Of a stretch of DNA of 64,000 nt, positions 25,020-27,463 are shown piece after piece. This stretch comes from Balneolaceae bacterium (GTDB lineage: Bacteria; Bacteroidota; Rhodothermia; Balneolales; Balneolaceae), in NCBI GenBank assembly GCA_020832415.1, contig JAFIES010000127.1, positions 21,289-85,288 of the forward strand. The letters are read 5' to 3'. Position 1 is the first letter of the stretch, and every line of letters begins with the position of its first letter. The translations under genes and the position numbers were made by a program. The notes beneath the pieces are model-generated. The model was not told the origin of the DNA, did no database searches, and was given only the letters and a program-made list of their open reading frames with translations.

Positions 25020-25757
25020 ATGGAAACACAATCAGCAAAAATTCTTGTAACCCGCGAACTTTCTGACGAACAGATAAAACAGGCAGAAGAGCTCGGGCTT
25101 CAGCTTACGATAGAACCAGCCATCGATATTGAGTTTCGGGATGACTGGTTCGCACTTGAAACAATTCTGAAGGCTATCGAAAAGCCTGTTTTTGCCTTTA
25201 CCAGTCAAAACGGAGCAGAAGCTTTTAACAGGTTTAAAGCGTCCGGCACAGCATTTCCCGATGATATGCGTGTCTATGCCGTGGGAAAAAAAACAGCCGA
25301 GTCTCTAATAAGTTTCGGATTGAACCCGATTGTTGCTGAACAGCAGGATGGTGTGGGACTGGCAAAAAAAATTACGGATGATTTTCTTTCTGAGCCTGAT
25401 CTGAAAAATGCAACCGTTTTGCACTTTTGCGGAGACAAGCGCAGAGATGAGTTCCGGCAATTTTTGGAACAATCAGAAATAAAAGTGCGGGATATGGTGG
25501 TGTATAAAACCATTCTTAAACCGATGAATCTGCCCGATTTCCAACCTGATGCCATTCTATTTTACAGCCCGAGTGCGGTGCAGGCATATAGAGAAAGTGG
25601 AGGTTTTGTTACAAAAAATCCATCCGAACTATTTGCTATTGGCAGCACCACTGCCGAAGAGTTAAGTATTGAATCCGGAAAACATGTGCACATTTCTCCC
25701 GAACCCGATACAGAAACTTTTCTGAAATTTGTGAAAGGTATTTTGGATGAAGCATGA
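25020..25757 (+). CDS. hemD: uroporphyrinogen-III synthase
   Basis: Position in heme operon; FTSQNGAEAF, FYSPSAVQAY, AIGSTTAEEL motifs. Confidence 0.88.
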   Translation: METQSAKILVTRELSDEQIKQAEELGLQLTIEPAIDIEFRDDWFALETILKAIEKPVFAFTSQNGAEAFNRFKASGTAFPDDMRVYAVGKKTAESLISFGLNPIVAEQQDGVGLAKKITDDFLSEPDLKNATVLHFCGDKRRDEFRQFLEQSEIKVRDMVVYKTILKPMNLPDFQPDAILFYSPSAVQAYRESGGFVTKNPSELFAIGSTTAEELSIESGKHVHISPEPDTETFLKFVKGILDEA

Positions 25758-26275
25758 ACAAAATAACAAACCATCTAAATACTAAAAGGCTCTTTGAGAA
25801 GTGTCCCCGTTCGAAGGGGGAAAGTGAGCGGAGCGAACCGGGGGATGACAGAAATTTTTATTACAACAAATACCTCAAAGAATTAGCCCGACAACTTCGA
25901 AAAGTATCAACAAAATCTGAAATTCGACTTTGGACTGAACTCCTTAGGAGTAAAAAAACAGGTTATACATTTCTCAGACAGCGCCCTGTACTCAACTACA
26001 TTGCTGATTTTATGTGTAAAGAACTCCAGTTAATCATTGAACTGGATGGATATTCCCACAATTTTGAACAGCAATGGAAAAAAGATTTGAAGCGGCAAAA
26101 AGAACTTGAATATAATGGCTTTAAGATCCTTAGATTTTCTGATGATGAAGTGATGAATGATTTACGAAATGTTGAAAGTGAAATCATGTTCTGGATAAAG
26201 AAGCTGGAGACTAAATACACCGACAACTCCGGATCTCCTTCAAAGGGGAATGATCAAAGATCCGAAAGAGCTTAA
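25754..26275 (+). CDS. DUF559 / Vsr-like endonuclease domain protein embedded in palindromic repeats
   Basis: YLKELARQLRKVSTKSEIRLWTELLRSKKTGYTFLRQRPVLNYIADFMCKELQLIIELDGYSHN...LEYNGFKILRFSDDEVMNDL; ATGA overlap with hemD. Confidence 0.88.
   Translation: MNKITNHLNTKRLFEKCPRSKGESERSEPGDDRNFYYNKYLKELARQLRKVSTKSEIRLWTELLRSKKTGYTFLRQRPVLNYIADFMCKELQLIIELDGYSHNFEQQWKKDLKRQKELEYNGFKILRFSDDEVMNDLRNVESEIMFWIKKLETKYTDNSGSPSKGNDQRSERA
25803..25849 (+). repeat. palindromic repeat, left copy (GTCCCCGTTCGAAGGGGGAAAGTGAGCGGAGCGAACCGGGGGATGAC)
   Basis: Near-perfect palindrome TCCCCgTTCGAAgGGGGA plus GGGGGATGAC tail. Confidence 0.85.
26230..26264 (+). repeat. palindromic repeat, short degenerate internal copy
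   Basis: CGGATCT-CCTTCAAAGGGGAATGATCAA-AGATCCG; related core to flanking copies. Confidence 0.65.
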
Positions 26276-26335
26276 CGAGTGACTGAACAAGGCTTTGTTT
26301 TGTATATTGATATTTACAGGATTCAAAGTCCTTAA

Positions 26336-26381
26336 CATCATCCCCCTGAGCCTTCGGCTTTTTCCCCCTTCAAAGGGGGAC
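26336..26381 (-). repeat. palindromic repeat, right copy in inverted orientation
   Basis: CATCATCCCCCTGAGCCTTCGGCTTTTTCCCCCTTCAAAGGGGGAC; reverse complement aligns to left copy. Confidence 0.85.
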
Positions 26382-26419: not shown

Positions 26420-27463
26420 ATGGCCCATAATTTTCCTGAACTGAAAAATGATCTCTTCTTGCGTGCATTAAATGGTGATTCTGTGGAACGTCCGCCCGTT
26501 TGGATGATGCGACAGGCCGGACGCTACCTCCCGCAATATATGGTTCTTCGCAAGAAGTACACTTTTTTTGAGCGTGTGGAAACACCCGAACTGGCCTGTG
26601 AAATTACCATCCAGCCGATTGATGAACTGGAACCGGATGCTGCCATCATTTTTTCAGATATTCTCACAGTTCCGCAGGCACTTGGAATAGATGTTCAGAT
26701 GATTCCCGGCAAGGGCCCGGTTATGGGTAATCCCATTAAAACTGAAGAAGACGCCTTTGCTATTCTTGCTGAAGATGTGGCTGAAAAGCTGAAACATGTG
26801 ATGGATGCCATCACACTTACCCGGAAAGAGCTGAACGGCCGTGTTCCCCTCATCGGTTTTGCAGGTGCACCCTGGACACTCTTCTGCTATATGGTTCAGG
26901 GAGAAGGTTCCAAGAATTTTGATAAGGCAAAATCATTTCTTTATCAGCACCCCGATGCCTCTCGCCATGTTATGCGTGAACTTACGAGGGCTACCATTGA
27001 TTACTTGAATGCACAGGTGGATGCCGGTGCCCAGGCGGTTCAAATATTTGATTCATGGTCAGGATTACTGAGCCCCGACGACTTTAATGAATGGGCGTTG
27101 CCAAATCTGATGGAGATCACAGCGGCTGTAAAAGGTGTACCAAAAATTCTCTTTGCAAAAGGATCCTGGTATGCGCTTGAGCGACTGGCCTATAAAAGCG
27201 GTGCATCAGCACTCGGATTAGACTGGACCATATCGCCGGAGTACGCACGAGAAAAAACAGGAAATCAAATCACGCTGCAGGGTAATTTCGATCCCACACA
27301 TCTGCTGGCTCCGATTCCTGAAATTGTTAAGAAAACCAAACTGATGATCGACAGATTTGGCACTCAGAGATACATTGCCAATCTCGGCCACGGCATCCTG
27401 CCACATGTACCCGTTGATCACGCCCGCGCTTTTGTGGATACGGTGAAGGAATACAGGGCGTGA
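26420..27463 (+). CDS. hemE: uroporphyrinogen decarboxylase
   Basis: RPPVWMMRQAGRYLPQY, GFAGAPWTLFCYMVQG, NLGHGILPHVP. Confidence 0.96.
   Translation: MAHNFPELKNDLFLRALNGDSVERPPVWMMRQAGRYLPQYMVLRKKYTFFERVETPELACEITIQPIDELEPDAAIIFSDILTVPQALGIDVQMIPGKGPVMGNPIKTEEDAFAILAEDVAEKLKHVMDAITLTRKELNGRVPLIGFAGAPWTLFCYMVQGEGSKNFDKAKSFLYQHPDASRHVMRELTRATIDYLNAQVDAGAQAVQIFDSWSGLLSPDDFNEWALPNLMEITAAVKGVPKILFAKGSWYALERLAYKSGASALGLDWTISPEYAREKTGNQITLQGNFDPTHLLAPIPEIVKKTKLMIDRFGTQRYIANLGHGILPHVPVDHARAFVDTVKEYRA

Follow-up and report, generated by a model that had tools for sequence, protein, structure and literature searches.

The hem operon of the 64-kb window, by which we mean the whole stretch of DNA analysed here, contains what we consider, with a probability of about 0.7, to be a minimal mobile element: a gene for an EDxHD-type nuclease bounded by two inverted triplex-type ends, of which gene-less end pairs and solitary ends would be non-autonomous or decayed forms. 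The unit is real, mobile and widespread. Its architecture recurs across phyla, its end types match, the same sites are occupied in some genomes and empty in others, it is inserted into genes, and its protein is under purifying selection; we infer that the DUF559 nuclease is the agent that moves it.

The unit in the hem operon

The gene order in the window is hemH-A-C-D, DUF559 ORF, hemE-F, where HemD and HemE are identified by domain match and hemH, hemA, hemC and hemF are named from their sequences. A preliminary description of this DNA had reported a DUF559 ORF between hemD and hemE, enclosed by inverted repeats in a unit of about 0.58 kb, and these features are all borne out (Table 1): the ORF matches PF04480 (E=1.1e-29) and has HEM4 and URO-D genes as its neighbours, both repeats are present, and the unit measures 579 bp from end to end. 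A shorter repeat copy, reported at the same time, is indeed related in sequence but is a degenerate fragment that we do not count as an end. The palindrome pattern matched three times in the window against 0.00 expected from 100 shuffles, and a general scan of both strands for a C-run followed by two G-runs found the two ends at DUF559 as the sole ones in the 64 kb.

Table 1. The unit and its flanking host genes, in positions of the 64-kb window
Feature	Position	Strand	Remarks
hemD (HEM4)	25020..25757	+	Host operon gene upstream of unit
DUF559 (PF04480) nuclease ORF, 173 aa	25754..26275	+	ATG overlaps hemD stop
Left end, T2	25803..25849	+	C-run/G-run palindrome, inner hairpin, second G-run, GATGA tag; sequence GTCCCCGTTCGAAGGGGGAAAGTGAGCGGAGCGAACCGGGGGATGAC
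DUF559 catalytic domain	25871..26191	+	Conserved D, E, D, H; predicted EDxHD/Vsr-like fold, pLDDT 87
Degenerate fragment like half an end, doubtful	26230-26264	+	CTCCTTCAAAGGGGAATGA
Right end, T2	26336..26381	-	Inverted copy of left end
hemE (URO-D)	26420..27463	+	Host operon gene downstream of unit

Translation of the N-terminal ~40 aa of the ORF runs through the left palindromic end, and no in-frame ATG, GTG or TTG was seen between this palindrome and the DUF559 domain of the window ORF. In the homologue of a second genome (G007) the nuclease frame opens at an ATG within the GGGGGATGA tag; compared with it, the window copy (25803-25880) has one base fewer past the tag, and its nuclease frame is open solely via the ATG that overlaps the hemD stop. 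Folding of the left end as single-stranded DNA gave a non-significant z of -0.96 in a secondary-structure calculation that does not model triplexes.

Anatomy of the ends

Each end consists of a C-run, a short palindromic stem, a G-run, a variable loop or small hairpin, a second G-run and a tag directed inwards. T1 ends have the tag TGTG and the stem CTCTTGAGAG; T2 ends, the type found in the window, have GATG and CCTTTGAAGG; T3 ends, TGGTT and CTCCTT..AAGGAG; and T4 ends, TGGA and CCGCTGGCGG; a fifth type carries the tag GAGG. The three-block order of C-run, G-run and G-run by which the TM/PIT motif is recognised is present in the unit ends. Parsed units (n=45) span 436-643 bp, with a median of 490, a size that leaves room for the DUF559 gene alone; the nuclease is the only product encoded, and no DDE, HUH, serine or tyrosine recombinase was found within the unit. 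All four DUF559 genes of the window genome (G000) are framed by an inverted end pair, with three end types among them. The same genome also holds gene-less end pairs, and end-like repeats such as CCCCCTTGAAAGGGGGGACGCAAGGGGGGTGT occur within ORFs, apparently read through, near the C-terminus of secreted-type proteins (L006, L011, L013).

Most repeat copies lie away from DUF559 and are gene-less pairs, like REP doublets, or solos, as might be expected if the palindromes were moved in trans by a RAYT/HUH or other transposase and DUF559 were cargo selected for other reasons, such as defence or repair. The Caulobacter DUF559 protein VsrA, which is tied to an SOS response in the absence of the methyltransferase ScmA (PMC12907096), fits such a role, and because of this link some DUF559 members appear to act like restriction or repair enzymes. 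We nevertheless hold cargo status to be very unlikely, given that the unit has no space for a second gene, that its end tags are unlike the GTAG and CGTC REP tags of PMC3733652, and that Holder et al. saw neither a transposase nor an integrase in the neighbourhood of triplex motifs (PMC4666352).

Flank pairing and the match between end type and nuclease clade

The upstream flank of DUF559 was compared with the reverse-complemented downstream flank, and a score of at least 28 was counted as pairing. Flanks paired at 70% of 80 loci of relatives, where 1083 control windows taken from these loci gave 1.75%. Among 78 loci of named genomes (Bacteroidota, Balneolota, Ignavibacteriota, Chlorobiota, Planctomycetota, Nitrospinota, Acidobacteria and others) the figure was 65%, and for their 1697 controls it was 1.06%; these percentages are not independent draws, because the loci are kin to one another. 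A detectable end pair is missing at ~30% of DUF559 loci. Chance repeats are ruled out by pairing so far above the controls and by the 0.00 shuffle expectation in the window.

Of 61 typable units, 58 have the same end type on the left and on the right, whereas shuffles gave a mean of 16.5 and a maximum of 28. Mapped on a 156-domain DUF559 tree with few columns and many weak forks, end type changes 14 times versus 61 in shuffled data, and none of 200 shuffles was as low, a comparison that tests clustering only. The idea put forward at the outset, that a Vsr-like nuclease co-propagates with these palindromes, is supported. Copy number also follows clade, with clade membership assigned by us: within genus, genomes with the matching DUF559 clade carry a median of 24 T3 ends versus 0 in those without it (p=4e-5), and a median of 10 T2 ends versus 0 (p=9e-5). 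When T3 copies are compared by presence of the T2 clade (p=0.02), or T2 copies by that of the T3 clade (p=0.009), the links are weaker than the own-type ones but not null, which shows that part of the genome-level link reflects shared phylogeny or load.

Across the 394 genomes of the phylum, 221 of which have DUF559, the gene is present in 34 of 35 genomes with T1 ends and in 187 of 359 without them (p=2.7e-8). Equal abundance of the repeats in genomes lacking DUF559, which the preliminary description had named as evidence against a co-mobile unit, is thus not what is seen. T1 ends are present in one genome (G299) in which we found no DUF559, and are absent from many DUF559-positive genomes.

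Presence, absence and decay at matching sites

DUF559 lies between hemD and hemE in 3 of the 29 hemE loci surveyed (G000, G007 and G012), and most of the other hem sites hold no repeat. Empty sites therefore exist among these loci, where strict vertical conservation would have spoken against mobility, and the impression that the unit had been inserted into the hem operon agrees both with this count and with the state of the closest relative, G002, whose HemE is 99.7% identical to that of the window. At its hem site a single palindrome, GTCCCCATTCAAAGGGGGAC, stands in place of the palindrome-unit-palindrome of G000, in flanks that otherwise match closely; the difference is either a gain in G000 or a loss in G002. 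A solo end is found at the hem site of G013, and gene-less units of two different types at those of G001 and G003. That DUF559 is an ordinary operon gene is ruled out, as most relatives are without it at the hem site.

Near this position the unit also takes other forms. In G021 (L031, G021:C306; outside the 29-locus survey), a DUF559 of the window's clade is fused in frame behind HemD in a 423-aa open frame, and in two Fodinibius species the unit is found one gene later, immediately after a HemE-like gene. In G007 (L055) a truncated second unit comes directly past the right end of the first, in the order left end, gene start, stop.

Comparable series occur elsewhere. At the hisS site, G000, G010 and G020 have a unit, G027 a gene-less pair and G004 a solo, and most other genomes have nothing; in G012 (L262) an unrelated hairpin-rich insert lies there between two half palindromes. 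Upstream of an acetyl-CoA acetyltransferase gene (beta-oxidation), units and gene-less pairs with three end types share a common right boundary, which could reflect replacement at an old insertion or a positional preference. No target-site duplication was recognised by eye at the hem, hisS and LeuRS sites, for which exact empty sites are few. Since clear target-site duplications are lacking and near-identical recent copies are few, activity is probably low or old.

Units inside genes

Insertion is not confined to intergenic DNA. In G042 a 510-bp in-frame unit splits LeuRS before the editing domain, with its tags directed outwards instead of inwards, and relatives have at this position a short ordinary loop, with neither unit nor palindrome. 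DUF559 is found in frame at the matching LeuRS loop in other genera, as well as in MetH ahead of its B12-binding domain, in HsdR and within a type ISP enzyme; LeuRS and MetH insertion loci in several genera include L307, L309, L313, L315, L320, L322, L325, L329 and L330. Within these genes, the end-like sequences are translated as linkers. Pfam identified no intein domain in six host ORFs, and the insertions are either intergenic or plain in-frame ones. Rickettsia palindromic elements are likewise palindromic repeats inserted in frame into ORFs; we know of no nuclease gene that travels with them.

The in-gene units are true insertions, and they rule out that the ends act in intergenic DNA alone. 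This disfavours the proposal that the ends serve in transcription termination or supercoiling and that their link with DUF559 is an incidental build-up in intergenic gaps. Although many solos do resemble terminators (AAAAGTCCCC...GGGGACTTTT) and are intergenic, we find the proposal hardly credible in view of the in-frame copies within long ORFs and of flank pairing at DUF559 far above control windows; in addition, an earlier study, as far as it is summarised in PMC4666352, found PIT motifs to be without terminator activity.

Occupation of one loop in several genera may be due either to inheritance or to repeated insertion. The use of the same LeuRS and MetH loops in several genera, the solo palindromes at sites that elsewhere hold units, and the identity of the nearest characterised homologue, the homing endonuclease I-Bth0305I, are also what one would see if DUF559 were a free-standing homing endonuclease gene that landed repeatedly in palindromes spread by another agent, the repeats serving as its safe site or target. 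Matched left and right types and the agreement of end type with clade would be unexpected of such a passenger, however, repeat copy number tracks the matching DUF559 clade, and the empty LeuRS sites have no palindrome; we regard repeated landing as unlikely. Both a homing gene in foreign repeats and the cargo of another transposase explain type matching less well than does a homing-like element.

The nuclease and a possible route of movement

The DUF559 domain is predicted, from profile and model comparisons, to have the fold of EDxHD homing endonucleases. A profile of 36 DUF559 domains matched the PDB entries 3hrl (N. gonorrhoeae NGO0050; E=2.2e-27) and 3r3p (I-Bth0305I; E=1.2e-5), and an AlphaFold model of the domain (pLDDT 87) matched the same two structures in Foldseek, 3r3p with E=5e-5 and a probability of 1.00. 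The match to Vsr in the model search was weaker (1vsr, E=0.027), so that the label Vsr-like given in the preliminary description holds as a distant relationship, while the domain stands nearer to EDxHD homing endonucleases than to Vsr itself. Four residues of the domain, D46, E57, D59 and H63, show no variation across the alignment. The closest DUF559 pairs have dN/dS values of 0.07-0.38, and the protein is therefore under purifying selection. A phage search for DUF559 returned six weak matches only, and the matches in PADLOC, of the homing-endonuclease and restriction kinds, were all weak. A review of EDxHD homing endonucleases is given in PMC3943268, and PMC9403480 places a DUF559 gene in this family in an intein context.

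We suggest that movement is homing-like. The nuclease would recognise ends of its own type, or an unoccupied target, and cut or nick there, and repair of the break or replication would copy the unit into the cut site. If the two near-identical palindromes then recombined or slipped on one another, a solo palindrome would be left, as in the closest relative G002, and loss of the gene would leave end pairs that might still be moved in trans. A REP-like single-strand route is also conceivable, since the ends can fold.

Relation to known elements

The repeats themselves are known. Holder et al. (2015) described intrastrand triplex motifs (TM_ECO/PIT), 23 of them in K-12 and others in more than 260 genomes, which occur in inverted A+B pairs and for which no associated mobility gene was found (PMC4666352). 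The present ends share with them the logic of C-run, G-run, short loop and G-run, a variable second loop, and dispersal, often as inverted pairs. They differ in that TM_ECO/PIT motifs were described as repeats without an enzyme, DUF559 being unmentioned (PMC4666352), and in that the E. coli copies are always intergenic, whereas ends of the present kind also lie within ORFs. The earlier view that such a system is undescribed thus stands in that no paper among those searched joins DUF559 to the repeats, but not for the repeats taken by themselves.

REPtrons (RAYT/REP) are analogous in organisation, as had been proposed: a small nuclease gene is flanked by palindromic repeats, and gene-less doublets and solos are dispersed. 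The enzyme class is indeed different, an EDxHD nuclease instead of a Y1/HUH transposase, and the tags TGTG, GATG, TGGTT, TGGA and GAGG, like the rest of the end sequence, are unlike those of REPs, among which GTAG repeats are linked to RAYTs and CGTC repeats have no transposase (PMC3733652). EDxHD homing endonucleases such as I-Bth0305I (3r3p) have a homologous catalytic domain and fold and likewise occupy a single site within a conserved gene across several genera. In contrast to them, DUF559 units have palindromic ends, occupy many unrelated sites, encode a short protein of ~110-170 aa and, with Pfam showing no intein domain in six host ORFs, appear to reside in neither an intron nor an intein. 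From Vsr, whose fold is distantly related, the window DUF559 differs in its flanking mobile ends and in having no cytosine methyltransferase beside it, its neighbours at this locus being hemD and hemE.

Our literature search, which left bioRxiv outside its scope, found no paper linking DUF559 to palindromes or repeats, and the description of a nuclease-encoding, palindrome-ended mobile element appears to be new. Its parts belong to known families; the novelty lies in the element as a kind, because it has neither the defining enzyme of RAYT/REP systems or insertion sequences nor residence in an intron or intein. DUF559 is by name a domain of unknown function, and triplex/PIT repeats have been known for years without a spreading agent; joining the two gives both a testable function. 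The unit may explain how orphan triplex repeats spread through bacteria and, if our reading is true, adds a mobile element whose enzyme is very small and which inserts in frame into leuS, metH and other genes without splicing.

Wider distribution

On balance we lean towards a pan-bacterial class in which an EDxHD nuclease of ~110 aa is the sole enzyme and triplex palindromes are its ends and their non-autonomous offspring; the triplex/PIT repeats of E. coli, Neisseria, cyanobacteria and Bacteroidota would then be footprints of DUF559, some of them in frame in essential proteins. Plasmids of Pseudanabaena, Picosynechococcus and Deinococcus, as well as N. gonorrhoeae, have DUF559 loci with flanking inverted GC-rich repeats of similar style. 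The DUF559 gene of E. coli is ycjD; TM_ECO-like copies are found downstream of it, and the repeat there corresponds in sequence to the motif of Holder et al. (2015). Among the E. coli strains compared, ycjD is widespread between sapF and fabI and no clean empty site was found; where the match breaks, an RND efflux operon adjoins fabI. CFSAN061768 (L219), for instance, has a TetR-regulated RND efflux operon upstream of fabI in place of ycjD. Laboratory entry points are E. coli ycjD and N. gonorrhoeae NGO0050, whose structure is already solved.

Two plasmid loci deserve mention. Past the DUF559 gene on a plasmid of Sinorhizobium sp. K101 (L217) are repeats that we take to resemble the Rhizobium RIME element, which may belong in one class with these elements. 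On a plasmid of Synechocystis sp. B12 (L299), a DUF559 ORF lies between similar ends just upstream of the BREX PglX gene, which this unit may interrupt.
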